Source: Modestobacter sp. VKM Ac-2984
GTDB lineage: Bacteria; Actinomycetota; Actinomycetes; Mycobacteriales; Geodermatophilaceae
Reading direction: 5' to 3'
Length of the DNA stretch: 64,000 bases
Assembly: GCF_026967985.1 (NCBI RefSeq)
Contig: NZ_JAPVBJ010000009.1
Location: 1 to 64,000, forward strand
Below are positions 36,362 to 60,664 of the stretch, one piece after another (the first letter of the stretch is position 1; each line of letters starts with the position of its first letter). The notes under the pieces were generated by a model that was not told where the DNA came from, did no database searches, and saw only the letters and a program-made list of their open reading frames with translations. A program made the translations under genes and the position numbers.

Positions 36362-37777
36362 ATGTCCGGACCCATGCCGCGTGACCACCGCGTCGCGGGT
36401 GCGCTGATCGGTTCCGCCGTCGGCGATGCGCTCGGTGCCCCGTTCGAGTTCGGCCCGGCCGGCCGGTTCTCCGCCCGCTTCCCCACCGACGCGCGCGGGG
36501 TCGCCACCGAGATGTGCGGCGGCGGAACGCTGGACCGGGAGCCGGGCGAGTTCACCGACGACACCCAGATGGCGCTGCTCGTGGCGGCGTCCCTGGTCGA
36601 GCGGGGCGGTCTGGACGAGGCCGACCTCTTCGACCGGTTCCGCACCTGGCTGCGCGCCGACCCGCCGGACGCCGGGAACCAGACCCGCGCCGTCCTGGGT
36701 TCCGGCCGGCCGTGGGACGTCGCCGCGGCGGAGCACGTCGCCCGCTCCGGGCACGCGGCCGGCAACGGCTCGCTGATGCGGACGACGCCGGCCGCGATCT
36801 GGTTCGCCGGGTCCGGCACCGGGGCCACCATGGACGCCGCCCGGCGGATCTCCGCCCTCACCCACGGCGACCCGTCGGCCGGTGAGGGCTGCGCGGTCTT
36901 CCACGAGCTGCTGCGCGTGGCGCTGGACGGCGGCGACCCGCTGGCCGCGATACCCGCAACGCTGGAGCTCGTGACGCCGGAGCACCGCGGCCGTTGGGCG
37001 ACCGTGCTGGCACCGGACTGGACTCCGGACCAGGCGACCGAGAGCAACGGCGCGGTGTGGCCGACGCTCGGCTCGGCGGTGTGGGCGCTGCGTGGCGCGA
37101 GCGACTTCGCCACGGTGCTGCGCCGGGTGATCGACCTCGGTGGTGACACCGACACGGTGGCCGCCGTCGCCGGCGGGCTGGCCGGTGCTGTGCTCGGCAT
37201 CGCCGGCATCCCGATGCGGTGGACCTCCGTCGTCCACGGCCGCGTGCCGGGCCACGCCGACAAGCGCTGGGACCTGGCCGACCTGCACGCCCTCGCCATG
37301 ACCCTGGACGGCAGCCCGACCAACCGGCACGTCGCGGCTCGCAGCCCGCGGATCGAGCCGCGCGAGGTGCTGCCGGGTGTGTGGGCCGCTGACCTGGACG
37401 GCGCGCGGAACAGCTCGCCTGACTTCGCCGTGGTCTCGCTGTGCCGCACCGGGGAGCCGTTCGGGCACGAGGTCCAGCGGTTCGCGTATCTGACCGACGA
37501 CGATGCGAACAGCGAGGTGGACGCGGTGCTGGCCGACGTCCTCGACGACATGGCAGCGCTGCGCGCCGAGGGGCGGCCGCTGCTCGTGCACTGTCACGGC
37601 GGGGCGTCCCGCACTGGGCTGGCGCTGCGGGCGTGGCTGCGCCGGACGGAGGGCCTGTCGGCCGCGGAGGCGACGGCCAGGGTGCGGGACGCGTGGCCGC
37701 ACCTCGGCCTCTGGAACGACAGCTTCACCGCCGCGCTGGACCGCCTGCCCCGGTCGACCGGCGCAGCGAGTGGCTGA
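36362..37777 (+). CDS. ADP-ribosylglycohydrolase fused to cysteine phosphatase
   Basis: A 471-residue protein. Residues 10-300 form a DraG-type ADP-ribosylglycohydrolase: GALIGSAVGDALGAPFEF, the metal ligands TDDT (65-68) and GGDTDTVAAVAGGLAGA near 260. Residues 325-465 form a dual-specificity-type phosphatase with VHCHGGASRTGLALR, giving the CX5R loop with Cys411 and Arg417. It could remove ADP-ribose from proteins or nucleic acids and then act on a phosphate, or on phosphorylated ADP-ribose; the order is inference. The ATG follows GGGAGGGAGG. Divergent from the NrtR-like regulator. Confidence 0.87.
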   Translation: MSGPMPRDHRVAGALIGSAVGDALGAPFEFGPAGRFSARFPTDARGVATEMCGGGTLDREPGEFTDDTQMALLVAASLVERGGLDEADLFDRFRTWLRADPPDAGNQTRAVLGSGRPWDVAAAEHVARSGHAAGNGSLMRTTPAAIWFAGSGTGATMDAARRISALTHGDPSAGEGCAVFHELLRVALDGGDPLAAIPATLELVTPEHRGRWATVLAPDWTPDQATESNGAVWPTLGSAVWALRGASDFATVLRRVIDLGGDTDTVAAVAGGLAGAVLGIAGIPMRWTSVVHGRVPGHADKRWDLADLHALAMTLDGSPTNRHVAARSPRIEPREVLPGVWAADLDGARNSSPDFAVVSLCRTGEPFGHEVQRFAYLTDDDANSEVDAVLADVLDDMAALRAEGRPLLVHCHGGASRTGLALRAWLRRTEGLSAAEATARVRDAWPHLGLWNDSFTAALDRLPRSTGAASG

Positions 37778-38902: not shown

Positions 38903-38984
38903 CGCGGCGCCGGCCGCGAGGTGAGCACGCCGTGGCCGTCACCGCCGCAGTGTGACGTATCGACTTCGTCCGCTGACGCCCCAG

Positions 38985-39038
38985 CTGCCACAGCCGCCAC
39001 AGCCTGACCCGGAGTCGTCGTCGCCGGCCGGTAGACAG
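38985..39038 (+). promoter_or_regulatory. Shared upstream element, copy A (before DUF4011-type helicase)
   Basis: CTGCCACAGCCGCCAC (38985-39000) is followed after 29 bases by GGTAGACAG (39030-39038), and the ATG comes 14 bases after the first G of that box. The same two boxes with the same distances precede the helicase gene at 50987. TAGACA six bases before the ATG could be a -10 box for a leaderless mRNA. In this copy GCCACAGCC is a tandem 9-base repeat. Confidence 0.6.
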
Positions 39039-39043
39039 GGCGC

Positions 39044-42000
39044 ATGACTGACCCCGCGGACCTCCAGCCGACGTCCATCGACGGGGCGGCACCGGGGCCG
39101 CGGGTCACCGTCGACGTGACGGCGGTGCCCGTCCTGAGCTACGCGCTCGCGCACAACGGCATCGCCGTCGTCTCCCAGCTGGTGCTGACCGGGCACGACG
39201 AGCCGGTACGGCACGCCAGCGTGCACGTGGCCGTCCGGGACGCCGAGGGCCCGATCGGCGCGGCCGTCGAGCTGTTCGCCGACATCGACCCGGGGCACAC
39301 CACGGTGCTCACCGACGTGGGGCTGCGGCTGGACCCGGCGGCGATGCTGCAGGTCGAGGAGCGCCGTCCCGGCTGGCTGTCGGTCCTGGTGGAGAAGGAC
39401 GGCGAGGTGCTCGGCCGGGCCCGCGTGCCGGTGCAGCTCCTGGCCGCCGCGCAGTGGCTGGCCACTCCCCTGGAGCTGGCGATGGAGATGCTCGCCGCCC
39501 ACGTCCTGCCCAACCACCCCACGATCCCGGCACTGGTCGCGGAGGCCGCCGAGGTGCTGGGCACGGAGACCGGCAGCCCGTCGATCCAGGGCTACCAGTC
39601 GGGCGCCCAACGGGTGGACGCGATCGCCGCCGCGATCTGCACCGCCGTGCAGGCCCGCGCCGTCCGGTACAGCGAACCCCCGGCCAGCTGGGCCGACGTC
39701 GGGCAGAAGGTGCGCACGCCCGGCGAGGTGCTCGACGAGCGGGTCGGCACCTGCCTGGACCTGGTCGTCGTCCTGGCTGCCGCGCTGGAGCAGGCCGGCA
39801 TCCGGCCGCTGCTGTGGCTGGTCGAGGGGCACGCCTTCCTCGGCTACTGGCGTGAGGAGCTGTCGGCGCAGAGCTCGGCGACCACCGACGTCGCCAGCCT
39901 GGTGAACCTGATCGACCTGGGGCTGATCCGGCTGGTGGAGACGACGATGCTCACCACCCGCAGCGAGCCGGTCGGCTTCGACGAGCTGCACCGCCCGCCG
40001 TACGCCGCGTGGCTCACCGGCGACCTCGACCGGGTGATCGGCGTCGTCGACGTCTACCGCGCCCGGCGCGACGGCGTCCTCCCGCTGCCGGCCCGCACCC
40101 GGGACGCCGACGGCACCGTGCAGGTGGTCGAGTACCGACCGGCCGTGCACAGCACCCCGGCCCGCCCGGCCGACACCGGGACGGCGGCGGAGCAGGAGGC
40201 CCGGGAGACCGCCCCGCCGCGGATCGCGCAGTGGAAGAACGCGCTGCTGGACCTCAGCCTCCGCAACCGGCTGATCAACTACACACCGCGCGCCGGGATC
40301 GCGCTGACCGTGCCCGACGCGCACCTGGGTGCGTTGGAGGACCTGATCAACGGCGGGACGGCGCTGACCCTGCTGCCCAGCGACCAGCTGGCCGCCGTGC
40401 AGCGCGAGCGGGGGCTGCGGTCGGCCCGGGAGCTGCCCCCGGAGCTGCTGGCCGAGCTGCTGCTGGACCGCCGGGGGCTGTACGTCGACGTCCCGGAGAG
40501 CTCGTACCTGACCCGGATGCGGGCGCTGGCCTACAAGGCGAAGACGGTGCTGGAGGAGACCGGCGCCAACAACCTGTACCTGGCGCTGGGCAGCCTGGCC
40601 TGGGAGCTGGACGGCCGGCCGCTGCGCTCCCCGCTGATCCTGGTGCCGGTCGTGCTGAAGGCCCATTCCCGGTCGGGGGCCTACCGGCTGACCGTGGACG
40701 AGTCCGGCACCAGCACGCCCAACTACTGCCTGCTGGAGAAGCTGCGCCAGCTGCACGGGCTGAGCGTGCCCGGTCTGGCCGAGCCGACCGAGGACGGCGC
40801 CGGGATCGACCTCGATGCGGCGCTGCAGGCGATGCGGGTCGCGCTGGTCGAGCAGGGGCTGCCGTACCGGGTGGAGCCGACCGCCGACCTCGCGATCCTG
40901 GCGTTCGCGAAGTTCCGGCTGTGGAAGGACCTCGACGAGCACTGGGCGACGCTGAGCGAGAACCCGCTGGTCGCCCACCTGGTGCACTCCCCCACCGACC
41001 CGTTCGACGACCCGGTCGCCGAAGACGGCTCGGTCGACCTCGACGAGCTCGCGGCCGCCGTGCCGGTGCCGGCGGACGCCTCGCAGCTGACCGCGGTCGC
41101 CGAGGCCGCCGCCGGCCGGACGTTCGTGCTCGAAGGCCCGCCCGGGACCGGCAAGTCGCAGACCATCACCAACCTGCTCGCCCGGGCGGTCGCCGACGGC
41201 AAGCGGGTGCTGTTCGTCGCCGAGAAGCGCGCCGCGCTGGACGTCGTCGCCCGACGGCTGGACGCGGTCGGGATGGGCCCGTTCGCGCTCGACCTGCACG
41301 ACAAGGGCAGCCGCCCGGCCGTGGTGCGAGCGCAGATCCGCGCGGCGCTGGAGCACGCGGTGCAGGTCGACGAGCAGGGTCTGGCCGCCGACGGCGAGGA
41401 CCTCCGCTCGGCCCGGCGCTCGCTGGCCCGCTACGCCACCCGGCTGCACGAGCCGAACGCCGCCGGCCTGTCGCTGTACAGCGCGCACACCGGCGCGCTC
41501 AGCGTGGGTGAATCCGTGCCGCCGCTGCCGGTCTCGCCGGCTGCGGTCGGTGGGCTGATCGCCGACGACGTGGCGGCGGTGCGGCGCGCACTGGCCGGGC
41601 TCCCGGACGTCGCCGACCTGGCCCGGCCGCGGCCGGGCCACCCGTGGGGCTTCGTGGACGTCGCCGACGTCGACGTGCCGGCCGCCGCGTCCGCCGCTGC
41701 TGCGGTCGATGCCGCCGTCGCCGAGTTGCTTGGGTCCGCACGGCTGACGCCGGTGCTGGCCGCGGTGCGCACGCCTGCTGATCTGGCCGGACTGGCCCGG
41801 GTGCTGGATGGTCCGCCGGTCGACCTGGCGGTGCTGGACGAGACCCGGTCGGCACGCTGGCGCAGCGAGACGGCCGCATTGTCGGCCGACGTCGCCGCCT
41901 TCCGCACGGCGCAGCACCCGGGCCTGGACGTGGCGACGCCGGCGGCACTGGACCTGCCGCTGGCGGAGATCTCCGCCGCCGGGCAGGCCGCTGCGCAGTC

Positions 42001-44875
42001 GGGCTTCTTCGGCCGCAAGAAGCGGCTGATCGCCGTCCGCGACCAGCTGGCTCCGGTGCTGACCGCCGAGGTGACCCCGAAGGCGGTGCCGGCGCTGGCG
42101 GCGGCGCTGCTCGCCGCGCAGACGACGGCGCGGGCGCTGGCCGCCCGTGCCGCGGCGATCCCCGGGCTGCAGGTCCCGGCGACGTGGAACCCATTGACCG
42201 ATCCCGGCCTGGTCGACCGGGAGGCCGACTGGCTGCGGCTGGCCGGCGCGGTGGTCGAGGGCAGCGACGGCTTTCCCGGGGCGCTGCGGGCGCTGCTGGC
42301 GCAGGGGCCGGCGACCAACCCGGCCGCCGCGGCGGCGGTCGGTCGCGCGGAGGAGGCGGTGCAGCAGCTGCTGACCGCCTGCCGGTCGACGCCCGAGCAG
42401 CTCGCGGCGTGGGCGGGCAGCGACGGGTTGTTCGCCCGGTGGCAGGCGACTCGCGCCGAGCGGGCGGTCACGGCGCCCGGGGTGCCGTCGCTGCGCCGGT
42501 GGCTGGACCTGGTCGCCGCCGTGGAGCCGCTGCGCTCAGCCGGGCTGGCTGAGGCCCGAGCTGCGTTGCTCATCGGTGACGTGCCGGCCGACGACGCCGT
42601 CCGCTCTTTCGAGCTCGGGCTGGCCGGCGCCGCGATGACCGAACGGGAGGAGGCCACCGGGCTGGCCGTCTTCGACGCGCCGGTGCACGAGCGGGCGATC
42701 ACTCGATTCACGGCGGCGTCCCGGGCGGTGCGCCGGCACCTGACCGCGGCGCTGCCCGCCTCGGTGGTCGCGGCCCGGTCGTTCGACGTCACCGCGCGCG
42801 GTGGCCGGGTGGGTGCGCTGCAGCGGGAGCTGAACCGGCAGCGCGGCGGGCTCGGCGTGCGCGGGCTGATCGCCGAGTACGGCGAGCTGGTCACCGCCGT
42901 CATGCCGTGCGTGCTGGTCAGCCCCGACTCGGTGGCCCGCTTCTTCCCGGCCCGGGCCGGCCTGTTCGACCTGGTGGTGTTCGACGAGGCGTCGCAGATC
43001 CGGGTCGCCGACGCGGTCGGCGCGTTGGGCCGGGCGAACGCTGCGGTCGTCGTCGGGGACAGCAAGCAGATGCCGCCGACGTCCTTCGCCGAGCCGACGA
43101 TGGACCACGATGCGCTGCCCGAGGACCTGGCCACCGCGGTGGAGGACGAGGAGTCGATCCTCTCGGAGTGCGTGCAGGCGCGGGTGCCGCGGCAGTGGCT
43201 GTCGTGGCACTACCGCAGCCAGGACGAGTCGCTGATCGCCTTCAGCAACGGCCAGTACTACGAGAACCGGCTGTCCTCGTTCCCGGCGCCGGTGCACGGG
43301 CCGGCCTCCTCGGCCCCGGACGGCCGGGGTGTCTCGCTGGTGCGGGTGGACGGCACGTTCCACCGCTCGGGGGCGGGCAAGCTGCTGCGCACCAACCCGG
43401 TCGAGGCGGAGGCGATCGTGGCGGAGATCCGCCGGCGGTTCGCGCTCTCCGCCGACGAGCCGCCCTCGATCGGCGTGGTGACGTTCAACGCCCAGCAGCG
43501 GGCGCTGATCGATGCACTGCTGCGGGACGCCTGTGACGAGCGGCTGGTCGAGGCGCTGGACCGCACCGACGGTGAGGGCCTGTTCGTCAAGAACCTGGAG
43601 AACGTACAGGGCGACGAACGGGACGTCGTGCTGTTCTCGACCGCGTTCAGCGCCAACGACCGGGGCCAGCTGCCGCTGAACTTCGGGCCGCTGAACAAGG
43701 TGGGGGGTGAGCGACGGCTGAACGTGGCGATCACCCGCGCCCGGCGGCAGGTGGTGGTGTTCTCCTCCTTCGACCCGGCCGACCTGCGGGCGGAGCAGAC
43801 GTCGTCGGTGGGGATCAAGCACCTGCGTGCGTACCTGGACCTGGCGGCGCACGGCACCGACGCGTTGCCGCGGGACGCGCGGTTCGCCTCGCTGCCCGAC
43901 CGGCACCGGGACTCCGTCGCCGCCGCGCTGCGTGCTCGTGGACTGGTCGTGCGGACCGACGTGGGGCTGTCGGAGTTCAAGGTGGACCTGGCCGTGTCGC
44001 TGGCCTCGGCGCCCGACGTGCCGGTGCTGGCGGTGCTGCTCGACGGCCCGGCGTGGGCGCGGCGGCGGACGGTCGGCGACCGCGACGGGCTGCCGGTGGA
44101 GGTGCTCGGCGGCATGCTGCGCTGGCCGGCGGTGGAGCGGGTGTGGCTCCCGGCCTGGCTCGCCGACTCTGCCGCCGTGGTCGACCGGCTGGTCGCCGCT
44201 GCCCAGGCCCCCGCCGCTCCTCCGCCCCCGGTAGAGCCGCTTCCCGTTCAGGCAGTGGCGCCCGAGCCGGCGCCCACGTCAGCGGCTGCGCCGGAGCCGG
44301 TCGAGTCGCCGGGGACGGTGCTGGACGGCGAGGAGCCGTTCACGCCGTGGACGCCGGAGCCAGCAGGTGAGCGCAGCCTGCTCGACCAGCTGGGCAACCG
44401 GCGGATGGCCGAGCGGGTGGGGCGGGTGCTGCAGGCCGGCGCTGACGCCGAGGGGCCGATTCACCTCGACCGGCTGACCCGGCTCGCGGCCGGCGCGTTC
44501 GGTCTGGGCCGGGTGGCGCAGGCACGTAAGGACGCCCTGACGGCGCTGGTCCCCGCGTCGGTTCGGGTCGGTGACTTCGTGTGGCCCGCCGGGCTGGACC
44601 GGTCGTCGTGGATCGGTTTCCGCCGTGACCCGGAGGCGACCAGGCCGATGGAGCAGGTGGCGCCGGAGGAGACCGGCAACGCGATGGTCGCGCTTTGCCG
44701 GGCCAGTGCTGGGATGACGAAGGACGAGCTCTTCGCGCAGACGCTGGAGGTGTTCGGCTACCGCCGCCGCACGCCAGCCCAGGTCGCCGTCCTGGAGGCG
44801 GCATTGTCGGCTGCGGTGGACGCCGGTCAGCTGACGGAGGCGGCTTCCGGTCTGGTGATCTCCGGCTCCCGATGA
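39044..44875 (+). CDS. Giant DUF4011/SF1 helicase with transglutaminase-like and REase-like domains
   Basis: A 1943-residue protein. Residues 1-130 look Ig-like. Residues 150-280 are transglutaminase-like with Cys near 236 (VGTCLDL) and His near 262 (VEGHAF). A DUF4011-type region follows around 390-560 (ALLDLSLRNRLINYTP). SF1 helicase motifs: EGPPGTGKSQTITNLLARA near 694, VVFDEASQIRVADAVGAL near 1309, GDSKQMPPTSF, WHYRSQDESLI and the C-terminal VAITRARRQVVVFS. Residues 1610-1715 (LSEFKVDLAVS, VLAVLLDGPAWARR) resemble the MTES_1575/Vsr-like nuclease, and the last 80 residues resemble DUF3320. Such proteins are found in defence islands; the Hhe-type helicase-nuclease is the nearest described. 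Probably a single-protein anti-phage or DNA-processing system. Confidence 0.82.
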   Translation: MTDPADLQPTSIDGAAPGPRVTVDVTAVPVLSYALAHNGIAVVSQLVLTGHDEPVRHASVHVAVRDAEGPIGAAVELFADIDPGHTTVLTDVGLRLDPAAMLQVEERRPGWLSVLVEKDGEVLGRARVPVQLLAAAQWLATPLELAMEMLAAHVLPNHPTIPALVAEAAEVLGTETGSPSIQGYQSGAQRVDAIAAAICTAVQARAVRYSEPPASWADVGQKVRTPGEVLDERVGTCLDLVVVLAAALEQAGIRPLLWLVEGHAFLGYWREELSAQSSATTDVASLVNLIDLGLIRLVETTMLTTRSEPVGFDELHRPPYAAWLTGDLDRVIGVVDVYRARRDGVLPLPARTRDADGTVQVVEYRPAVHSTPARPADTGTAAEQEARETAPPRIAQWKNALLDLSLRNRLINYTPRAGIALTVPDAHLGALEDLINGGTALTLLPSDQLAAVQRERGLRSARELPPELLAELLLDRRGLYVDVPESSYLTRMRALAYKAKTVLEETGANNLYLALGSLAWELDGRPLRSPLILVPVVLKAHSRSGAYRLTVDESGTSTPNYCLLEKLRQLHGLSVPGLAEPTEDGAGIDLDAALQAMRVALVEQGLPYRVEPTADLAILAFAKFRLWKDLDEHWATLSENPLVAHLVHSPTDPFDDPVAEDGSVDLDELAAAVPVPADASQLTAVAEAAAGRTFVLEGPPGTGKSQTITNLLARAVADGKRVLFVAEKRAALDVVARRLDAVGMGPFALDLHDKGSRPAVVRAQIRAALEHAVQVDEQGLAADGEDLRSARRSLARYATRLHEPNAAGLSLYSAHTGALSVGESVPPLPVSPAAVGGLIADDVAAVRRALAGLPDVADLARPRPGHPWGFVDVADVDVPAAASAAAAVDAAVAELLGSARLTPVLAAVRTPADLAGLARVLDGPPVDLAVLDETRSARWRSETAALSADVAAFRTAQHPGLDVATPAALDLPLAEISAAGQAAAQSGFFGRKKRLIAVRDQLAPVLTAEVTPKAVPALAAALLAAQTTARALAARAAAIPGLQVPATWNPLTDPGLVDREADWLRLAGAVVEGSDGFPGALRALLAQGPATNPAAAAAVGRAEEAVQQLLTACRSTPEQLAAWAGSDGLFARWQATRAERAVTAPGVPSLRRWLDLVAAVEPLRSAGLAEARAALLIGDVPADDAVRSFELGLAGAAMTEREEATGLAVFDAPVHERAITRFTAASRAVRRHLTAALPASVVAARSFDVTARGGRVGALQRELNRQRGGLGVRGLIAEYGELVTAVMPCVLVSPDSVARFFPARAGLFDLVVFDEASQIRVADAVGALGRANAAVVVGDSKQMPPTSFAEPTMDHDALPEDLATAVEDEESILSECVQARVPRQWLSWHYRSQDESLIAFSNGQYYENRLSSFPAPVHGPASSAPDGRGVSLVRVDGTFHRSGAGKLLRTNPVEAEAIVAEIRRRFALSADEPPSIGVVTFNAQQRALIDALLRDACDERLVEALDRTDGEGLFVKNLENVQGDERDVVLFSTAFSANDRGQLPLNFGPLNKVGGERRLNVAITRARRQVVVFSSFDPADLRAEQTSSVGIKHLRAYLDLAAHGTDALPRDARFASLPDRHRDSVAAALRARGLVVRTDVGLSEFKVDLAVSLASAPDVPVLAVLLDGPAWARRRTVGDRDGLPVEVLGGMLRWPAVERVWLPAWLADSAAVVDRLVAAAQAPAAPPPPVEPLPVQAVAPEPAPTSAAAPEPVESPGTVLDGEEPFTPWTPEPAGERSLLDQLGNRRMAERVGRVLQAGADAEGPIHLDRLTRLAAGAFGLGRVAQARKDALTALVPASVRVGDFVWPAGLDRSSWIGFRRDPEATRPMEQVAPEETGNAMVALCRASAGMTKDELFAQTLEVFGYRRRTPAQVAVLEAALSAAVDAGQLTEAASGLVISGSR

Positions 44876-44965
44876 CCCCGGTGGTCGGACAAGACGAGGT
44901 CACCCGGCAGGTTGCCCTCGCTGGGGCAATCACGGGGCAGGTAGTGACCGCCAGATCCAGCTGTG

Positions 44966-45371
44966 TCAGGTATCGGTCTCTTCCGGAGACCGGGACCCAT
45001 CCAGCGCATCGAGGGCATCACGCAGCCTCGCGGTGACATCGCTGGCGTCCAGGCGACTGAACAGCGCCGGCGTGGCGCTCACCCGGTGCCCGTTCACCCA
45101 GGGCACCGGCTTCGCGACCGCCTCGATCGCTGCAACAGGCAGCTCGACCGCCTGCACGATCTTGTAGGTCGCCTCGTCGAAGAGGACGATCACTGCCGGT
45201 GACCTCGCGTTTTGATGACCCCCCCCGCCGCAGCAGCTCGGTCAGCGTTACGGCGTTGAGCGCCGTGGGGTAGTAGCACTCCTGGTAGCGGGTCAGGTCG
45301 GTGGGGCTAAAGACGAGCCGCCCGTCGCTGCGGCGAACGTCGGCGCCCGGCGGCCAGCGTGAACACGACAT
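44966..45371 (-). pseudogene. Decayed gene of unknown family with poly-C frameshift
   Basis: Two open frames join across a run of eight C (45219-45226 on the plus strand). The upstream one reads RLVFSPTDLTRYQECYYPTA and LNAVTLTELLRRGG; one base less or more would continue it into AVIVLFDEATYKIVQAVELP and AKPVPWVNGHRVSATPALF, ending near DGSRSPEETDT. The second part resembles the C-terminal half of DUF6998-type proteins found near restriction systems, a weak resemblance. Length change in the homopolymer, real or in sequencing, broke the frame. No convincing start codon or ribosome site was found. Confidence 0.4.
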
Positions 45372-45775
45372 GGTGAGCCCCCGTGGTCATGCGCCGATCG
45401 AGCGCAAGCCCCCTGTCATGCTGGGCGGGCGTGTCGGCGACCACCCGCGCCGAAGAGGTCCCTCGCCGCCACGTGCGGTAGTGCTGCGCTGCTTTCCGGC
45501 TTGTCCCGTTGCACGCATGTCCCAGCGCCTCGAACAGGGGCACGAGCATCGCTCTGCGGAACGGACCAGCCGAGGACGGCGCCCCTCGCGTAGCTGGCGC
45601 AGCTCACGCACGGTGAGACGGCTCCTCGATCAGCCATCGGAGCGGTCCGCTCACCGCCGAGGCGGAACCCTCGAACCGAAACACCGGGCTGCCGGTACGC
45701 CGCCAAACGGCGCCAGCGACGGACGGGTGATAGAACGCGACCAGGTCACCAGCACGAACGATTCGGAGTTCATGG
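45372..45775. other. 404-base region without convincing gene
   Basis: Only short overlapping frames occur on both strands. One minus-strand frame (LRIVRAGDLVAFYHPSVAGA, then WRRTGSPVFRFEG) reads somewhat protein-like but lies partly under the mcrB start and has no clear start. I regard the region as decayed sequence left by rearrangement upstream of the McrBC locus. Confidence 0.4.
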
Positions 45776-47989
45776 ATGTCATCGAGTGAGCCGTTGTACG
45801 TAGCTGCACGACGAGTGATGGACTCCGGCTTGGGGGCGGACGACTCCACCTTCACACCCGGCGCAGCGATCTGGACGGCCGAATCACTGGAGGACCTCTA
45901 CGAGCGCTTCGTGTTAGCCCCGGACACCGGTGGCCGACGTTTCCTGGAGAAGCTCGAGGACCAGCTCAAAGGGGCGCCCGCCGCAACGGTCCAACTCACT
46001 GCCGAACTGCTCTACCTACACCTGCTAGCGCCTGCAGACATGGGCGGGGTCGCCAAGCGGAATCTCCTGACCGGCACCCTCGCGATCGGCGCTGAATCCG
46101 TGACGATCCCGGCAGATCTCTCGACGGCTCTCGACCGGGGCTTCGCCCGAGTCGGCACGGCCTACCTCACGCAGCGGGACCGACAACTGTCGTTCCTGGT
46201 CCGCTTCGCGCGCGCCTGGAAGCAGCTGCCCGACGACGCGCGGACTGAGGCCCTGGCCGATCCCTGGGCGTTCCATGAGGTCGTCAACTCTGTGCCCATC
46301 AACAGCGCCTACAGCCAGCGCAACGCGCTGCTGCACCTGGGCTTCCCCGACACGTTCGAACCCATCGTCTCTCGTCAGCACAAGGCCAAGATCCTTGCGG
46401 CGTTCGCCGACGAGCTTCCGGAGCGCACCGACAACGAGGACCGCGACTTACACATGCTCCGCGGCATCCTCGAAGCCGAGCACGGGGGGCCGATCAGCTT
46501 CTACGAGTCCCCTACCATCGCTCAGCGGTGGCGGGGTCAAAGCCCGGTGGGCGAAGGGGCCGACGTGCGGGGCTGGCTCGTTCGCGGCGCGAACGTGAAC
46601 GGCCACAACGTGGTCCCCGACTGGCTTGCAGGTGGCTACTGCTCCATCGCATACACCGAGTTTTCCGAGCCGCCGAGCGGCCGGACCCGCTCGCAGCTGG
46701 ACAGTGCCCTGGCTGACGCCATCCCCGAGCTGAGCGCAAGACAGCGGGCCGTTCACGTCGGCATCCTCGACCGATTTCTCAACCAGATGCACCCCGGGGA
46801 TGTGGTGGCCACGGTGGACGGCCCCCGGCTCTACGTCGGAACGGTGACGGGGCCGGCGGAATGGCAGAATGGCACCGATACGCTGTCTAGCCATCGCCGC
46901 GCCGTCGACTGGGTCGCCGCCGAACCGGTGCTGCAGCGAAGCCAGCTGTCCGACGCCGCACGCGACAAGCTGTCGGGACAGATGACCGTCAGCGACCTGC
47001 GTCCCTTCGCCGCCGAGTACGCACGGCTGGCCGGGCTGGACGACAGCGAGCCAGCGACGGAGGAATCCGGCGAGGCGACCGCTCCGGAGCTCACCACACC
47101 TGTCTCACTGCCCGGCCCGACGAAGCAGCTCGCCGAGCAACTGCTCGTCGACCTCGCATGGCTGGAGGAGACCCTCGAGCTCCTGCGCGAGAAGAACCAG
47201 ATCGTCCTCTACGGCCCTCCAGGGACCGGGAAGACCTACCTCGCTCAGGAGATCGCCGAGTTCATCGCCGAGCAGACCGGCGGGGGCTTTCGGCTCGTGC
47301 AGTTGCACCCGTCCTACGCGTACGAGGACTTTTTCGAGGGGTTCCGCCCCCAACCAGGCGCGACAGCCGGCACCATCTCGTTCGAGCTGGAGCCGGGGCC
47401 GTTCAAGCTCCTGGTGGACGAGGCTCGAGACAATCTGTCCCACGGCTACGTCCTCGTCATCGACGAGATCAACCGAGCGAACCTCGCGAAGGTATTCGGT
47501 GAGCTCTACTTCCTACTCGAGTACCGCGACCGGAGCATCAGCCTCCAGTACTCCCCGCAAGAAGAGTTCTCCCTCCCGCCGAACGTCTTCGTCATCGGCA
47601 CTATGAACACCGCCGACAGGTCGATCGCCCTGGTGGACGCTGCGATGCGCCGCCGGTTCGCCTGGCAGGGGTTGTTCCCCTCCGATTCCCCCGTCTCCGG
47701 GCTGCTACGCGCGTGGCTGCGGCGGGAGGGCCTGCCCGAAGATCGCGCAGACCTGCTTGATGCCCTCAACCACCGGATCGGAGATCGGGACGCCATGGTC
47801 GGGCCGTCGTACCTGATGTCTCGGACGGTCGGTACCGACGCCGGACTGTCCCGGATCTGGAAGCACCAGATCCTCCCGCTCCTCGAGGAGCGGCATGTCG
47901 GCGAGGGCATCGACGTCCCGAAGAGGTACGGCATCCAAGCCCTGCGGGAGGCGACGGCCCCGACGACCTCTGAGCAGCCGCCCGAATGA
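45776..47989 (+). CDS. mcrB: McrB-family GTP-dependent restriction ATPase
   Basis: A 737-residue protein. The C-terminal AAA+ domain has Walker A YGPPGTGKTYLA (near 480), Walker B YVLVIDEINRANLAKVFGEL (near 562) and MNTADRSIALVDAAMRRRF (near 610), the NTAD motif that gives McrB its GTP preference. The N-terminal half has a helical region and, around 265-385, a beta-rich module (GWLVRGANVNG, VVATVDGPRLYVGTVTG) that is probably the modified-base recognition domain, like EVE/PUA folds in other McrB proteins. It forms a ring that loads the McrC nuclease. Stop and next start overlap (ATGA). A GTG at 45815 is an alternative start. Confidence 0.85.
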   Translation: MSSSEPLYVAARRVMDSGLGADDSTFTPGAAIWTAESLEDLYERFVLAPDTGGRRFLEKLEDQLKGAPAATVQLTAELLYLHLLAPADMGGVAKRNLLTGTLAIGAESVTIPADLSTALDRGFARVGTAYLTQRDRQLSFLVRFARAWKQLPDDARTEALADPWAFHEVVNSVPINSAYSQRNALLHLGFPDTFEPIVSRQHKAKILAAFADELPERTDNEDRDLHMLRGILEAEHGGPISFYESPTIAQRWRGQSPVGEGADVRGWLVRGANVNGHNVVPDWLAGGYCSIAYTEFSEPPSGRTRSQLDSALADAIPELSARQRAVHVGILDRFLNQMHPGDVVATVDGPRLYVGTVTGPAEWQNGTDTLSSHRRAVDWVAAEPVLQRSQLSDAARDKLSGQMTVSDLRPFAAEYARLAGLDDSEPATEESGEATAPELTTPVSLPGPTKQLAEQLLVDLAWLEETLELLREKNQIVLYGPPGTGKTYLAQEIAEFIAEQTGGGFRLVQLHPSYAYEDFFEGFRPQPGATAGTISFELEPGPFKLLVDEARDNLSHGYVLVIDEINRANLAKVFGELYFLLEYRDRSISLQYSPQEEFSLPPNVFVIGTMNTADRSIALVDAAMRRRFAWQGLFPSDSPVSGLLRAWLRREGLPEDRADLLDALNHRIGDRDAMVGPSYLMSRTVGTDAGLSRIWKHQILPLLEERHVGEGIDVPKRYGIQALREATAPTTSEQPPE

Positions 47990-49164
47990 TCTCGCTAACC
48001 CTGCCCGAATGGTCGACCAAAGCCGTCGAGAGGGTTCCGCCCGTCACCGCCGCCGCCCTGGAGGCAACCGGGGCCGTGCGCGTGAGCGTCGACCTCCAGG
48101 GGCGCACTGTCCTCAGCAGCTCGTCGTTCGTCGGAGCCGTTCGAGTCGGCGACGTCCAGCTTCGGATCACCCCGAAGCTGGGCGTCCGCCGACTGCTCTG
48201 GCTGATCGGCCACGCACAAAACCCCTCCGGCTGGCGAGATGAGGGAGCCGTCGACCTGGCCGAGTCGCCAGAGCTGGAAACCGCGCTCGCCGTCTCGTTC
48301 CTAGCCGCCGCGAATCGCGCCCTGGCCCAAGGGATCATGCAGGGCTACCGGGTCCGGGAAGAGGCGCGGCCGGTGCTGCGCGGTCGCATCCGGGAGGTTG
48401 ACCAACTGCGACGCCGGCTGGGGAGTGCGGCACTGCTCGAGGTCCGGTTCGACGACTACACGATCGACATCCCGGAGAACCAGATCCTGGTCGCCGCTGC
48501 AGAGCGCCTCGCTCGCCTGCCCGGCATCCCCGCCGCCACCCGCGCCGGACTGCGCCGACTCCTCGTCATGCTCGCGGACGTCACCCGACTCCCTCGAGGA
48601 CACCAGTTCCCGGCGACGAGCGTCAACCGACTCACCCGCCGCTACCAGCCGACGCTCCGGCTGGCGCGACTGGCACTGGCTGGGCATAGCTTCGACCAAC
48701 CGGCAGGAGCCGTCTCGGCCAGTGGCTTTCTGTTCAACCTCAACACGGTCTACGAGGACTGGTTGACCGCGGCAGTCCGGACGGCGCTGGCTCCTCGAGG
48801 CGGCGCCCTTCGCGCGCAGTACGCCGTGCACCTAGACCAGGCCGGCCGGATTCCCATGAGGCCCGACATGGTCTGGGAGCGCGACGAGAGACCGGCGGCC
48901 GTCCTGGACGCCAAGTACAAGAGCCTGTCGACGAAGGGACAGCCGGACACCGACCTTTACCAAATGCTCGCCTACTGCACGGCTCTCGCTTTGCCGACGG
49001 GCCACCTCGTGTACGCAGAAGGGACGGCCACCCGGAGTTCCCATGTCGTCCGTGCGTCGGGCGTGACCATCAATGTTTGGTCACTCGATCTGAGTAGCCC
49101 CGTGCCAGATCTCCTCGGCAGCGTCGACTCGATCGCGCAAGCGCTGGAGCACGAGAGCGCGTAA
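47986..49164 (+). CDS. mcrC: McrC-family endonuclease subunit
   Basis: A 392-residue protein of the McrC/LlaJI type. The N-terminal part carries VQLRITPKLGVRRLLWLIGHA; the C-terminal nuclease has RPDMVWER (Asp near 293) and AVLDAKYKSL (Asp and Lys near 308-311), the PD-DxK site. It binds the McrB ring and cuts modified DNA. It overlaps mcrB by four bases. The IS5-type remnant begins 24 bases after the stop but leaves the gene intact. Confidence 0.87.
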   Translation: MISLTLPEWSTKAVERVPPVTAAALEATGAVRVSVDLQGRTVLSSSSFVGAVRVGDVQLRITPKLGVRRLLWLIGHAQNPSGWRDEGAVDLAESPELETALAVSFLAAANRALAQGIMQGYRVREEARPVLRGRIREVDQLRRRLGSAALLEVRFDDYTIDIPENQILVAAAERLARLPGIPAATRAGLRRLLVMLADVTRLPRGHQFPATSVNRLTRRYQPTLRLARLALAGHSFDQPAGAVSASGFLFNLNTVYEDWLTAAVRTALAPRGGALRAQYAVHLDQAGRIPMRPDMVWERDERPAAVLDAKYKSLSTKGQPDTDLYQMLAYCTALALPTGHLVYAEGTATRSSHVVRASGVTINVWSLDLSSPVPDLLGSVDSIAQALEHESA

Positions 49165-49187
49165 GGGCTGGGCGCCTTGGGAGTGTT

Positions 49188-50057
49188 GGGAAACTGATCG
49201 GCTACTTGTTGGAGTCGAGGTCTTCGACCAGCCGGCGGGCGGCCTCGGTCTCGATCGGTCCGTGGAGTTCGATGTGCCGGCCGGTGAGGTGGGCGGCCAT
49301 CAGCCGGATCCTGGTGACCTTGATCATCGCCTCGGCGTGCTTGGTATTGCGCTCGTAGTCCCGTGCCACCGCCTGCTCCTCGTCAACCACCCGAAGCTGC
49401 GTTCGACCACCCCACCGGCGGGGCAGCACCTGGAAGGCTCGCACGTCATCGCAGCGACGCACGACCTCCAACTCCAGCCGAGCTCCTTCCGGCGTGGGTG
49501 ATCAGCGAGGTGTCCACCACGTTGGCGTAGCCGCCTCAGCCCGCACCTTGCCCAGTCGCGGGTAGCGCGGGTGAGCAGCCGCCGCCCACCTGGCCGGTCC
49601 TGCAGCGAGGCGGTGGTGACCATGGCTGCCAGCAGCAGCCCACAAGTATCGACCAGCAGGTGCCGTTTGCGGCCCCGGAGCCGCTTACCGGCGTCGTAGC
49701 CGATCGCTTCTCCACCCTCAGAAGTCTTGATCGACTGGGCATCCAGCACCGCCGCCGTCGGCTGGGGATTCCGGCCCTCGGCGGCACGCACCCGGTCCCG
49801 CAGCACGTCGGGCACCCGGTCCCAGGTGCCATCGCGGTCCAGGTGCGAAACCACCGGTAGGCCGAGTCCCAGGGGACCAGGTCATGCGGCAGCAGCCGCC
49901 ACGCACAGCAGCTGACCAGCACGTAAAGGATCGAATCCAGAACCAGCCGACGGTCGTGCTGGAGCGGCCAGCCACCGGCATGCGGGTCATGGACCGGCTG
50001 CAACGGCTCGACCAGCACCGACTCGGCGTCACCCGCTGGGGATAGACCAGTTCTCAG
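49188..50057 (-). mobile_element. Degenerate IS5-family insertion sequence
   Basis: Transposase pieces lie in several minus-strand frames: a start region (PVHDPHAGGWPLQHDRR, LVSCCAWRLLPHDL), the first catalytic Asp region (AAVLDAQSIKTSEGG, RLRGRKRHLLVDT), VVERSFGWLTRSRRW, and the end NTKHAEAMIKVTRIRLMAA. At least three frameshifts separate them, so it is dead. Imperfect ends, GGGAAACTGATC at 49188 and TGAGAACTGGTC on the minus strand from 50056, share 8 of 12 bases. No target duplication is evident. The right end abuts the EcsC-like gene and supplies its stop codon. Confidence 0.75.
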
Positions 50058-50764
50058 GCCGAAACGTCATCGTCCGCCGGGAAGTTGCCTTTTGCGTAGC
50101 CACCGATCGACCGCATCCCCACCACGTTGACAGACGCGCCGACGCCGCCGCCCACGAACGGCACGAGCTTGCTCAAGTTGACGACCCCGGTGGTGCCAGC
50201 CTTGGTGACCAACCGGAAGCCGACCTTCTTGTTGATGTCCATGAGCACTCGGCCGGGGACCTTCTTGAGCGCAGCGAGTGCCGCTCTTGTGCCGAGGTTG
50301 ACGCCGAACTCGGCAGCCATGGCGACGCCACCGGCCCCGAGCAGCGACATGAGAACGACGCTGCGCACCTCATCAGACTCCAGCTCGTAGCCCCGCAGGT
50401 GCGCTACAGAGCCGGCGCACCGTGATGCCTGCACGTAGAAGACCCCCACATCGGTGGGAACAGTCACGGGCAACGTCACGAAGCCCCCTAGCCCGGTCGC
50501 AAACCCGGACGCACCAACTACACGAGCGTGCGTAGCGATGAGCCGCTGGATCGCCTTCTCCGCATCGCCAGGTCTGGTCAGGTGCTCATCTGCAATCTCC
50601 CGCGCACTCTTGAACGGGCCCTTCCCTTCCAACCCCACCGAGAGAACAGTGTCCACGAACTTCTCGACCTTGGTGTCGCCGTGCTCCGAGGCCCCGTCAC
50701 CATCATTCGCCACTACGTTGTCCACCTCTTCAGTCGATCGTGCATAGCAAATCGGTATGCGCAT
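50054..50764 (-). CDS. EcsC-family protein
   Basis: A 236-residue protein from the ATG at 50764 (GTGs further in, such as VANDGDG, are alternatives). It contains the EcsC pattern: AIQRLIATHARVVGASGFATGLGGFVTLPVTVPTDVG, VRSVVLMSLLGAG, KKVPGRVLMDINKKVGFRLVTKAG and VPFVGGGVGASVNVVGMRSIG, with hydrophobic stretches that may associate with membrane. The biochemical role of EcsC is unknown. Its TGA stop lies inside the terminal repeat of the IS5-like remnant, so the original C-terminus may have been changed. A canonical promoter lies just upstream. Confidence 0.8.
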   Translation of the reverse strand: MRIPICYARSTEEVDNVVANDGDGASEHGDTKVEKFVDTVLSVGLEGKGPFKSAREIADEHLTRPGDAEKAIQRLIATHARVVGASGFATGLGGFVTLPVTVPTDVGVFYVQASRCAGSVAHLRGYELESDEVRSVVLMSLLGAGGVAMAAEFGVNLGTRAALAALKKVPGRVLMDINKKVGFRLVTKAGTTGVVNLSKLVPFVGGGVGASVNVVGMRSIGGYAKGNFPADDDVSA

Positions 50765-50780
50765 CACGGTCAAACTCGCC

Positions 50781-50809
50781 CATACAGTGCGTACCGGGTG
50801 TCCGGTCAA
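50781..50809 (-). promoter_or_regulatory. Promoter of the EcsC-like gene
   Basis: On the minus strand TTGACC (50809-50804) and TGTATG (50786-50781) are separated by 17 bases, the standard sigma-70-type spacing, and lie 17 bases before the ATG at 50764. The octamer CGGTCAAA (plus strand) overlaps the -35 box at 50803 and recurs at 50767, which could be an operator pair. Confidence 0.5.
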
Positions 50810-50927
50810 AGCTGCTGTCAGCGAAGGCCGCGCATACCGCTCCCCCGCTAACAGTGAAGCGGCACGCTGCCACATGAGGTCGACCACCGGAGCACATTCG
50901 ACTGAAAGTCGTCCGCTTACGTCTCAC

Positions 50928-50981
50928 CTGCCACAGCGGCCACCCGGCGTACCCGGTAGCTCGCCGGCAACAGGTAGACAG
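50928..50981 (+). promoter_or_regulatory. Shared upstream element, copy B (before PLD-helicase)
   Basis: CTGCCACAGCGGCCAC (50928-50943) and GGTAGACAG (50973-50981), 29 bases apart, 14 bases from first G to the ATG at 50987. Boxes and distances equal those of copy A (15 of 16 and 9 of 9 bases), while the DNA between them is less alike. This selective conservation suggests a regulatory site plus a leaderless promoter. Confidence 0.6.
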
Positions 50982-50986
50982 CCTGC

Positions 50987-53900
50987 ATGGACCACGCCGA
51001 AGCGAGCGCCGGCCCCGTTGATCGACGCACGGCCGTGCGCTCGCTCAAGCCGGGGATATACGAGGCCCTGGTCACCGACGAGTTGGCCGGATCACTGTCT
51101 CGAACACCCGCCGAGCTGGTGCGGTTCGAGTCTCTTGACCCTGCCGATTCACATCTTCTCCTCACCCGGCACCTGGCGGAGTTGATCAGCCGTTCTCTGC
51201 AGTCCGTCTCCGGCAGCGACGAGAGCAAGGTCGCTGCGCAGGTCGAACTGACCAACCGGATCGCAACCGCCGTCGGCGAGCTCAGTACGCCGGATGCCGT
51301 GCTCACCGGCGATCGGGTGGCTGACGTCGCTCGACAGCTGCTGGCCGTGGCGACGCCCTCCCCCACCCCGGCACCGGTGACCTTCCCAGCGCGGCCGGAG
51401 GTGCCGCTCAGCACTAGCGCGCTGCTGGTCAACGGCCGCGGCCAGCCGCGGATCGGCTATGAGGTGGAGCGCGAGCTGGCGTCCGCGGACAGCGTGGACC
51501 TGCTGTGCGCCTTCATCACCTGGCACGGCGTCCGGGTGCTGGAGCAGGCCCTGCAGGACCTTCAGCAGCGCGGCGTGCGTCTGCGGGTCATCACCACCAC
51601 CTACCTCGGCGCGACCGAACCACGTGCCGTCGAACGGCTGATCGCTGCGGGCGCAGACGTCCGCATCTCCTACGAGACCCGGACGACGCGGCTACACGCC
51701 AAGGCCTGGCTCTTCCACCGCAGCTCCGGCTTCTCCACCGGCTACGTCGGATCGTCGAACCTCTCCCGAGCGGCGATGATCGACGGGCTGGAGTGGAACG
51801 TCCGACTGTCGTCCGTCGAGCAGTCTCACCTGCTGCACACGTTCGCCGAGACGTTCGACTCTTACTGGCACGACCCGGCGTTCGAGCCCTACGACGCCGA
51901 GCGCTTCACGGCCGCGATCGCTGTCGAGCGAGGCGGTCGGGGGGATGCGACCACCGAGATCACCTCGCTGGACGTCCGTCCGTTCGGCTACCAGCAAGAG
52001 ATCCTCGAGGCGTTGGACGCCGAGCGACTGGTGCACGACCGGTGGCAGAACCTCGTGGTGATGGCGACCGGCACCGGCAAGACAGTGGTCTCCGCGCTGG
52101 ACTATCGGCGGCTGCGCGCCCAGGGGCACGTCGAGACGGTGCTGTTCGTCGCCCACCGCAAGGAGATCCTGACCCAGAGCCGGTCGACATTCCGCCAGGT
52201 GCTCCGCCGCGGAGACTTCGGTGAACTCCTGGTCGACGGCGCCAAGCCCACGCAGTGGCAGCACGTGTTCGCCTCGGTCCAGTCGTTGGCCCAGCTCGAC
52301 CTCGCCACGCTGCGGCCGAATCTGTTCGACCTGGTGGTGGTCGACGAGTTCCACCACGCCGAGGCAGACACCTACCGGCGGCTGCTGGACTACCTACGTC
52401 CGAAGGTGCTCGTTGGGCTGACGGCAACGCCCGAGCGGGCCGACGGTCGTGACGTGATCGCCCGATTTGGTGGGCGCTTCGCGGTCGAGCTGCGGCTGTG
52501 GGAGGCACTGGAGCAGCGGCTGCTGGCGCCGTTCCAGTACTTCGGCAAGCACGACGACGTCCCGCTGGACACGGTCCGCTGGCGGCGGGGCTCAGGCTAC
52601 GACGTCGCCGAGCTGACCAACCTCTACACCGGCAGCGACGCCCGGGTGCGACTGATCCTGCAAGCCGTGGTCGACACGGTGGCCGAGCCGACGCGCATGC
52701 GGGCGCTGGGCTTCTGCGTGAGCATCGACCACGCCGTCTTCATGGCAGCTCGTTTTGACGCCGCCGGCATCCCGAGCCGCGCAGTGACGTCGCGGGACGG
52801 CGCAGACGCCCGTGCGGCAGCGCTGACGGCACTGCGGAATGGCGAGGTGAACGTGCTGTTCACCGTCGACCTGTTCAACGAGGGGTTCGACCTGCCGGAG
52901 ATCGACACTGTGCTCTTCCTCCGCCCGACGGAGAGCGCAACCGTGTTCCTGCAGCAGCTCGGCCGCGGACTGCGGCTGGCTGAGGACAAGCCGTGTCTGA
53001 CGGTGTTGGACTTCATCGGCTCCCAGCACCGGAGCTTCCGCTTCGACCTGCGCTTTCGGGCGCTCACCGGGACGTCCCGACGTGGGCTGGAACGGGAGAT
53101 CGACTTGGGCTTCCCGACGCTCCCAGCGGGCTGCTCGATCCAGTTGGACCGGGTTGCACAGCGAGTGGTCCTGGACAACGTCCGCCAGTCGCTGCGGCTG
53201 CCCTGGCCTCAGTTGGCCAACGAGCTCGCTGCCTCCCCCGAGGCCGACCTGCCCAATTTCCTGGACGAGACAGGGCTGGACGTCGAGGATCTCTACCGCG
53301 GCACCAGCCGGAGCTGGCTGGATCTGCAGCGCGCGGCCGGCGTGGTCACCGCCGAACCGGGGCCGGACGACGCCCGGCTGCGCGGCGCCTTCGCGCGGAT
53401 GCTGCACCTGGACGACATCGAGCGACTCGACCGGCTGGACGAGGTGCTCAACGGCTCGGCCTTCGGGTCGAGCGACCGAGACCGGCGACTGGCCGCGATG
53501 CTGCACTTCTCACTCTGGACTTCGCGGACACCCTTCTCATCCGTCGAGGAGTCACTAGCGCGACTGCTCGCCGACCGCGCCCGATCAAAGGAGCTGGCTC
53601 AACTGATCGGTGTATTGCGGGAGGGCATTCACCGAGTGGCACCGGCGCTGGATGACGGGCCGCGGCCGCTGCACGTACACGCGCGGTACAGCCGCGAGGA
53701 GGCGCTGGCGGCGTTCGGGATGACCGATCTGGCCGGCACTTTCGGCTCTGGGGTGCGCTGGGTACCTGACGAGCGGGCGGATCTGTTCTTCGTGACGCTG
53801 ACCAAGGCCGCGGGGCACTTCTCCCCCACCACCATGTACGCCGACTCCGCCATCACCCCAACGCTGTTCCAGTGGGAGTCGCAGAACACGACGACCGAGG

Positions 53901-54127
53901 CGTCACCCGTCGGCCAGCGGTACGTGCACCACCGGGAGTGGGGCAGCTCGGTGCACCTGTTCGTGCGGGAGACGAAGACAGCGGACGGCGCGCTCGGGGT
54001 GCCGCCGTACCTGTATGCCGGGCCGATGACCTACCAGTCGCACACCGGGAACCGGCCGATGCGCATCCTCTGGGAGTTGGATCACGCGTTGCCCGGCGAC
54101 ATCTTCCACGCCGCCAGGGTCGCATGA
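50987..54127 (+). CDS. PLD-nuclease / SF2 helicase with DUF3427-type C-terminus
   Basis: A 1046-residue protein. Residues 150-300 form a phospholipase-D-type nuclease with one HxK motif (RLHAKAWLFHRSSGFSTGYV, near 236) and GSSNLS; one motif per chain implies a dimeric site. The SF2 helicase has VVMATGTGKTVVSAL near 358, VVVDEFHHAEAD near 453, LTATPERADG, FNEGFDLPEIDTVLFLRPT and QQLGRGLRLAEDK near 655. The C-terminal 330 residues fit the DUF3427 region of defence helicases. It should bind, move on and cut DNA or RNA. It stands alone but shares its upstream element with the giant helicase gene at 39044. Confidence 0.85.
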   Translation: MDHAEASAGPVDRRTAVRSLKPGIYEALVTDELAGSLSRTPAELVRFESLDPADSHLLLTRHLAELISRSLQSVSGSDESKVAAQVELTNRIATAVGELSTPDAVLTGDRVADVARQLLAVATPSPTPAPVTFPARPEVPLSTSALLVNGRGQPRIGYEVERELASADSVDLLCAFITWHGVRVLEQALQDLQQRGVRLRVITTTYLGATEPRAVERLIAAGADVRISYETRTTRLHAKAWLFHRSSGFSTGYVGSSNLSRAAMIDGLEWNVRLSSVEQSHLLHTFAETFDSYWHDPAFEPYDAERFTAAIAVERGGRGDATTEITSLDVRPFGYQQEILEALDAERLVHDRWQNLVVMATGTGKTVVSALDYRRLRAQGHVETVLFVAHRKEILTQSRSTFRQVLRRGDFGELLVDGAKPTQWQHVFASVQSLAQLDLATLRPNLFDLVVVDEFHHAEADTYRRLLDYLRPKVLVGLTATPERADGRDVIARFGGRFAVELRLWEALEQRLLAPFQYFGKHDDVPLDTVRWRRGSGYDVAELTNLYTGSDARVRLILQAVVDTVAEPTRMRALGFCVSIDHAVFMAARFDAAGIPSRAVTSRDGADARAAALTALRNGEVNVLFTVDLFNEGFDLPEIDTVLFLRPTESATVFLQQLGRGLRLAEDKPCLTVLDFIGSQHRSFRFDLRFRALTGTSRRGLEREIDLGFPTLPAGCSIQLDRVAQRVVLDNVRQSLRLPWPQLANELAASPEADLPNFLDETGLDVEDLYRGTSRSWLDLQRAAGVVTAEPGPDDARLRGAFARMLHLDDIERLDRLDEVLNGSAFGSSDRDRRLAAMLHFSLWTSRTPFSSVEESLARLLADRARSKELAQLIGVLREGIHRVAPALDDGPRPLHVHARYSREEALAAFGMTDLAGTFGSGVRWVPDERADLFFVTLTKAAGHFSPTTMYADSAITPTLFQWESQNTTTEASPVGQRYVHHREWGSSVHLFVRETKTADGALGVPPYLYAGPMTYQSHTGNRPMRILWELDHALPGDIFHAARVA

Positions 54128-59726: not shown

Positions 59727-59822
59727 CCTGTCGGGTGGCGCTCTGGGCACATGCGCCTCACGCGGCACTGTCCTACGCGCGCCGGATCAAGCGATGGTCG
59801 GCTGTAGGCCGAATATGGCCGC

Positions 59823-60510: not shown

Positions 60511-60664
60511 CCAACCCCACCCGACGAGTCAACTGAAGTCGGGGCAGTCCCCGCGGGGCGTTACCGCGCGGTCGCGCGCTGCTCCTAGAGTCATGCCCAT
60601 GGCTGTCCCCAAGCCTGCTGTGCCTGAGGGCAGCTGACGAAGTAGGACGGAGCGGACGGGACGT

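Follow-up and report, generated by a model that had tools for sequence, protein, structure and literature searches.

A conserved promoter-like element shared by a ProA-type anti-phage gene and a downstream helicase-nuclease gene in Modestobacter sp. VKM Ac-2984

Results

Two helicase genes within a 64-kb window

The window analyzed here, meaning the whole stretch of 64,000 nucleotides, carries two helicase genes on its forward strand, referred to below as gene 1 and gene 2 and separated by ~6 kb (44876-50986). The genes and the intervening features are as follows:

39044..44875, + strand: gene 1, a ProA-type anti-phage protein of 1943 aa with DUF4011, AAA_11/AAA_12 and MTES_1575 nuclease domains
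44876-50986 interval: a 162-aa reading frame between the two genes, with no Pfam match
45776-49164: an AAA_5 McrB-like and McrC pair, between gene 1 and gene 2
~49183-50031: an IS-like stretch, similar to a sequence matched four times in genome G048
50054-50887, - strand: a weakly EcsC-like gene (28.9 bits, below cut-off)
50987..54127, + strand: gene 2, a helicase-nuclease of 1046 aa with PLDc, ResIII, Helicase_C and DUF3427 domains (mREase_IV in PADLOC)

Gene 1 scored 1768 bits against NCBIfam model NF058533 (antiphage_ProA), exceeding the curated cut-off of 1500, and matched PDC-S37 in PADLOC; by that cut-off it is a member of the ProA anti-phage family. In the part of the literature covered, we found neither a published account of ProA regulation nor a description of the promoter of gene 1 or gene 2.

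An upstream element of identical geometry precedes both genes

The upstream box reads CTGCCACAGCCGCCAC at 38985-39000 in gene 1 and CTGCCACAGCGGCCAC at 50928-50943 in gene 2, and is followed by GGTAGACAG at 39030-39038 and 50973-50981, respectively. The original prediction, that the two boxes are set apart by a fixed gap of 29 bases with 14 bases from the first G of GGTAGACAG to the ATG, was exact at both genes, and the DNA between the boxes was indeed less alike, matching at 12 of 30 spacer positions. The element extends further upstream than the span described there. A third repeat unit lies 5' of the box (GCCCCA at 38978-38983 in gene 1, GTCTCA at 50921-50926 in gene 2), and the ten bases 5' of this unit match at nine positions. 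Between the two genes, the repeats are identical at 19 of 23 positions and the segment from the core to the ATG at 13 of 16. The parts of the element, numbered with the A of the ATG as +1, are:

38978..39001, + strand: gene 1 array GCCCCA-gct-GCCACA-gcc-GCCACA, made up of columns conserved across the 45 rows of alignment A1; units at 38978, 38987 and 38996, period 9, -66 to -43
39016..39021, + strand: gene 1 PafBC-like -26 element CGTCGT, -28 to -23, ten bases before TAGACA
39030..39038, + strand: gene 1 core GGTAGACAG; six bases lie between its -10 hexamer TAGACA (39032-39037) and the ATG at 39044
50921..50944, + strand: gene 2 array GTCTCA-cct-GCCACA-gcg-GCCACC, whose units start at 50921, 50930 and 50939
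50959..50964, + strand: gene 2 -26 position GCTCGC, a poor match to TGTCGG that keeps T-26, C-25 and G-24
50973..50981, + strand: gene 2 core GGTAGACAG; six bases lie between its -10 hexamer TAGACA (50975-50980) and the ATG at 50987

The likeness of the two upstream regions could in principle reflect chance or the simple bias of GC-rich DNA, and the behavior of the single boxes speaks for such a reading: the GCCAC-type box alone is not rare (21 places with up to three mismatches, 6.7 expected) and GGTAGACAG with one mismatch is no commoner than expected (5 observed vs 9.0). The pair behaves otherwise. With up to three mismatches, the joint pattern occurred at two places in the window and in none of 100 dinucleotide shuffles, and a search of the whole 4.56-Mb genome for the box pair, the check that accompanied the original prediction, returned just two matches, with one for the reversed control. 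Because the original scoring model contained gene 2, a leave-out matrix was rebuilt without either window gene. Gene 1 scored 57.2 bits and gene 2 48.6 bits in this matrix, and they were the only window positions above zero; shuffling the bases of gene 2's element 20,000 times gave a maximum of -7.4. The fetched loci, which were chosen for other purposes and are not a random sample, amount to 5.28 Mb with both strands counted and overlaps included. Scanned at TA dinucleotides, they yielded 64 distinct sites above 10 bits, namely 60 before DUF4011 helicases, gene 2 itself, and three others, one of them at a recC gene (11.5 bits) and two elsewhere (14.2 and 11.3 bits). The best other site outside DUF4011 helicases thus scored 14.2 bits vs 48.6 for gene 2, in a matrix that had never seen gene 2. 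On the strength of the shuffles and the leave-out scores, chance similarity was rejected and is given virtually no credence here.

In the strain's own genome, 150 of the 14271 candidates from a first look were scored, and three strong sites were recorded among them: gene 1, gene 2 and a second helicase gene on contig C4. A third DUF4011 helicase gene, also on C4, is preceded by a degraded copy of the element. The genome thus encodes at least three DUF4011 helicases (including L088 and L098 on contig C4 of G000), each with the element or a degraded copy, and several other Modestobacter genomes encode two or more.

The element is kept upstream of ProA genes across Geodermatophilaceae

A relative of gene 1 is encoded at 77 loci, for 73 of which the upstream regions were compared. 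Most in-family loci carry the same block, consisting of two to four GYCMCA units with a 9-bp period, a stretch of ~30 bases, and then CCGGTAGACAG. The start codon follows CCGGTAGACAG after four to seven bases (mostly six or seven from the -10 to the ATG), and the distance from the first repeat to the -10 is 54-56 bases in most of the Geodermatophilaceae examined. Alignment A1 comprises 45 rows: gene 2 and 44 sequences from upstream of DUF4011 helicases or their relatives. None of the rows deviates at GGTA, at ACA, or at the T and G of the start codon. Departures from the core within the family are GGTAGGAA (L015, L038, L086), GGTAAACAG (L018) and GGTTAACTG (L034). The loci with GGTAGGAA represent a ProA subgroup, in which it takes the place of GGTAGACA before the start codon.

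A sequence-only model built from the alignment (R1) matched 95 of 108 Geodermatophilaceae genomes, and 87 of the 93 with good completeness. Sixty-nine of the matches were opened, and 62 of these precede a DUF4011 helicase or a shortened relative (30/30 and 32/39); the other seven lie before recC-like genes (3) or before something else or nothing clear (4). Pfam identified as RecC the product of a comparable gene that a pattern search had returned. The element was absent from the 14 out-of-family upstream regions compared (Agromyces, Arthrobacter, Cellulomonas, Phytoactinopolyspora, Rhodococcus and others), one of which (L077) was largely masked.

The element is thus a promoter-like block, kept with nearly fixed spacing at ProA genes in most of the Geodermatophilaceae examined, and gene 1 and gene 2 very probably share this conserved promoter. 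The original proposal was a common promoter and transcription factor. Conservation across the family upstream of gene 1 lends good support to a common promoter that has a regulator site 5' of it; who the regulators are, we infer from motif likeness.

The core reads as the -10 of a probably leaderless promoter

A reading of GGTAGACAG as a second, separate binding box was given up in favor of the -10 region of a probably leaderless promoter, since the sequence keeps a constant distance from the ATG and also occurs before recC, L272 and other leaderless-looking starts. The -10 hexamer reads TAGACA or TACACA. TAGACA ends six bases before the ATG in both window genes and seven bases before it in most Geodermatophilus, so the -10 lies at the six to seven bases from the start codon that are expected of leaderless transcripts, and the mRNA is therefore probably leaderless. 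Consistent with this placement, a survey of 3199 candidate starts from 62 sources of Geodermatophilaceae found TANNNT 18 times at -12, against between 0 and 6 times at any one of the remaining positions from -30 to -5. TAGACA, which is without the final T of TANNNT, was found 40 times at -12, 7 times at -13, 9 times at -36, and as single or double cases elsewhere. A ribosome-binding reading of the core (AGGTGA in Blastococcus) was discarded; it is not conserved in Modestobacter or Geodermatophilus.

The upstream array recurs at cell-division and envelope genes

Columns 11-16 and 20-25 of alignment A1 read GYCMCA, and the array has about three units at a 9-bp period. When up to two mismatches were allowed, the pattern GTCACANNNGTCACANNNGTCAC was present in 102 of 108 Geodermatophilaceae genomes, usually several times and with few reversed-control matches. 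With three mismatches, the strain's own genome held 22 matches vs 7 in the control, the gene 2 array being among the 22. Genes could be assigned at 19 of 30 opened array loci. Nine of these belong to two families of small conserved reading frames, and the others are SepF (3), ECF sigma factors (3), CofD (1), a 5'-nucleotidase (1), a SepX/GlpR-like gene (1) and an amidase (1). Pfam confirmed one member each for SepF, CofD, ECF sigma, 5'-nucleotidase, amidase and GlmS, the rest being assigned by visible likeness. SepX/GlpR was identified by NCBIfam from the own-genome gene, where the array lies on the opposite strand. Among 17 model matches lying mainly over the repeats, five precede a nameable gene (three cofD-like, one 5'-nucleotidase, one glmS) and the other 12 fall inside open frames or have no assigned gene. 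The small-frame families behind the array are represented by L319, L322, L327, L340, L341 and L343, and by L318, L328 and L330; one ends in RHTWSFLAG...AFAIILSL, the other has HWFRWSGEDAFSGSSLYTCRCGQ with variants, and they occur in several genomes.

The upstream box had been read as a regulator site. That function is probable from sequence, and the box itself turned out to be part of a 9-bp-period array used at many other genes of the family as well. The 9-bp GTCACA-type array is thus a family-wide element, and several of the other genes that it precedes act in cell division or at the envelope.

The array is a direct repeat of GTCACA-like half-sites, as is the MtrA box, for which GTCACAgcg direct repeats have been described (PMC4285127). 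MtrA targets in M. tuberculosis include sepF, wag31 and rpf genes (PMC6265350). The array resembles MtrA boxes in its half-site, in its head-to-tail arrangement and in having sepF among its targets, as in M. tuberculosis (PMC6265350). It differs in spacing: the published MtrA period is 11 bp (9 nt plus 2-nt spacing; PMC6265350), whereas about three units recur here at a period of 9, and membership among MtrA boxes as published was rejected on that ground. A search of 10 Modestobacter genomes for GTCACA-N{0,12}-GTCAC returned 176 matches vs 31 in the control; among the 150 matches listed, 47 had a period of 9, 28 of 11, 15 of 18, and 2-11 each of the others. With GTCACA enriched at both 9 and 11, either MtrA accepts two spacings or two regulators share the half-site, which suggests two binding modes or two proteins behind the 9-bp and 11-bp pairs. 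MtrA or a close relative may bind the array, although we judge this somewhat less likely than not.

The core partly resembles PafBC promoters

The PafBC motif is given as TGTCGG-N10-TA-N3-T, with variants TGTCAG and TGTCAC (PMC8151990), and PafBC, which is activated by ssDNA, redirects the housekeeping polymerase (PMC11804915). In the weighted rows of A1, T occupies -26 in 79% and C occupies -25 in 88%. Across 33 helicase promoter clusters, the match to TGTCRG was best at -28 among 26 offsets, with a mean of 3.42 of 6 positions (next best offset, 2.91) and at least four of 6 in 18 of the 33 clusters. GTC stands at -27 in 18 of 34 clusters, and at -23 in 16 of 34, where it is frequent because of the GGTCCGTCC block. 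The hexamer at -28 is mostly GGTCCG, AGTCCG or another variant, not TGTCGG. Set against the full motif, gene 1 reads CGTCGT-N10-TAGACA and gene 2 GCTCGC-N10-TAGACA, neither with the final T.

The motif itself occurs before other genes as well. TGTC[AGC]G-N10-TA lies within 260 bases upstream of all 21 recA loci examined (24 fetched). With a tolerance of two mismatches, 22 Modestobacter genomes together gave 152 matches to TGTCGG-N10-TAGACA-N6-RTG, ProA promoters included, vs 48 for the reversed control. Genes behind TGTCGG-N10-TAGACA sites encode RecC, PriA, a PD-(D/E)XK nuclease and a LysM protein, others being metabolic or unclear. ProA promoters resemble PafBC promoters in that about half of the clusters have a GTC-type -26 element and, ten bases on, the TA of the -10, and in the presence of the motif at the own-genome recA and at RecC, PriA and PD-(D/E)XK nuclease genes of the genus. 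They differ in usually replacing the T at -28 and the G at -24 and in adding a 9-bp repeat array upstream, and the match at gene 2 is poor.

The original prediction had named WYL proteins among the candidate regulators. The PafBC-like core makes such a regulator possible; the window, for its part, holds no WYL gene, the five WYL matches of the genome all lying elsewhere. Two of these are adjacent (C15:379838 and 380800), downstream of a partial PafA and before tatA, the order usual for these genes; the C-terminal part of PafA scores 488.5 bits, the cut-off for the whole protein being 551.3. From their WYL domain and gene order, these two genes are the putative pafB and pafC of this strain.

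WYL regulators of the BrxR/CapW type are local, being encoded beside a defense system, and bind inverted repeats. The element discussed here would have in common with them the transcriptional control of defense genes; it departs from that description in its direct repeats and in that all five of the genome's WYL matches fall outside the window.

Given a peak at -28 with variant hexamers, GTC also at -23, and GCTCGC at gene 2, PafBC is plausible for some ProA genes and weak for gene 2. We regard its action at the ProA core as quite possible, yet not probable, and its action at gene 2 as unlikely. No report of PafBC control of defense was found in the part of the literature covered.

The same evidence bears on a different pair of regulators, namely an activator unrelated to MtrA (e.g. 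BldC/MerR-like or SARP-like) together with an ordinary sigma-A leaderless -10 that works without PafBC. The 9-bp period is unlike the OmpR-family sites described in PMC6265350 and PMC10609481, where repeats are spaced by 4 bp or recur every 11 bp; the match at -26 is incomplete; and TANNNT at -12 is enriched before genes of the family in general. All three points fit this alternative. Conversely, the GTCACA half-site is that of MtrA (PMC4285127), the 11-bp period is enriched as well, SepF is a shared target class, the -28 offset was the best of 26, and the TAGACA core is common to recC and L272. We consider an unrelated activator with a plain -10 tenable, if less likely than not.

Origin of the gene 2 copy

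Upstream of six Modestobacter orthologues of gene 2 (69-94% identical), the DNA is unrelated and the element is absent (scores -14.9 to -30.3); similarity of gene 2 to these six relatives starts only at residue 12-20. Gene 2 thus carries a real second copy of the element, one without counterpart in the six orthologues.

The two genes had been presented as two separate systems. This is not clearly so, since a PLD-helicase gene lies downstream of a ProA relative at 5 of 77 loci, and many of the 77 do not extend far enough to reveal such pairing. The distance is ~1.2 kb in L012, ~7 kb in L011 and L015 and ~0.5 kb in L078 (Cellulomonas); in L038 (Blastococcus), just two bases separate the ProA stop from the start of the PLD-helicase. 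ProA relatives and the PLD-helicase thus recur as neighbors. Taken together with the orthologues devoid of the element, this recurrence makes the case look like captured co-regulation of a recurrent pair, and the gene 2 copy was quite probably captured rather than ancestral. PLD-helicase fragments were also seen in genome G093.

A long duplicated segment was considered as the source of the gene 2 promoter and rejected, no long DNA match to the ProA upstream region having been found. When the gene 2 and ProA N-termini were compared, the best DNA score was 19, with a 95% point of 17 and a maximum of 21 in 300 codon shuffles.

The gene 2 copy might also be a by-product of recombination devoid of regulatory meaning, the element being the ancestral cis-site of ProA and the event that separated the two genes having carried a ProA-like promoter along. 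The lack of the element in all six PLD-helicase orthologues is in keeping with this, as is the onset of similarity at residue 12-20, expected at a recombination junction. Two observations speak against it: the repeats (19/23), the flank (9/10) and the stretch from core to ATG (13/16) are kept next to a near-random spacer (12/30), and no long DNA match to a ProA upstream region was found. The contrast between these segments and the spacer makes it look as if selection has acted on the functional parts since the copy arose, and we judge a by-product without function improbable.

Discussion

We favor, with moderate confidence, an explanation in which one regulated and probably leaderless promoter, combining an activator at the array with a PafBC-type core, has been captured by gene 2. 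A response-regulator-like activator would bind the array head to tail and recruit RNA polymerase, there being no evident -35 in this promoter. The position of GTC at -27 to -25 would match that in PafBC promoters, where ten bases lie between the hexamer and TA, and the DNA-damage activator PafBC may act through this GTC, at least at some ProA genes. RNA would start at the A of the ATG. In this strain, ~6 kb of DNA with McrBC-type genes, an IS-like remnant and an EcsC-like gene would have come to separate the pair, and the PLD-helicase would have acquired a ProA-type promoter, such that the two genes stay expressed together.

A stricter version is rather unlikely in our estimation, namely a family-wide double control of the anti-phage gene by a 9-bp GTCACA operator and an ssDNA/DNA-damage core of the PafBC type, copied in one lineage onto the partner helicase after the split. 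Were it true, defense would rise whenever a phage attack upset the surface of the cell, its division or its DNA. Little is known of how anti-phage genes on the chromosome are turned on, and here is one family-wide conserved promoter with named candidate regulators. The 9-bp-period GTCACA operator, which the anti-phage gene shares with cell-division and envelope genes, is apparently unpublished. Its regulon is easily scored, and its occurrence beside the enriched 11-bp form offers a testable lead on a global regulator. The gene pair, for its part, would be a natural case of promoter capture, in which a recurrent defense pair has been split and yet keeps a common switch.

Further features of the window flank the two genes. 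Upstream of ProA, a single frame at 36362-37777 joins an ADP-ribosylglycohydrolase domain to a weak, below cut-off match to a dual-specificity phosphatase. Downstream of gene 2, positions 54277-62749 encode a UvrD-like helicase (- strand), a DrmD/SNF2-type helicase (- strand) and an N6/N4 DNA methylase, and this region therefore looks like a defense island with DISARM-like parts.
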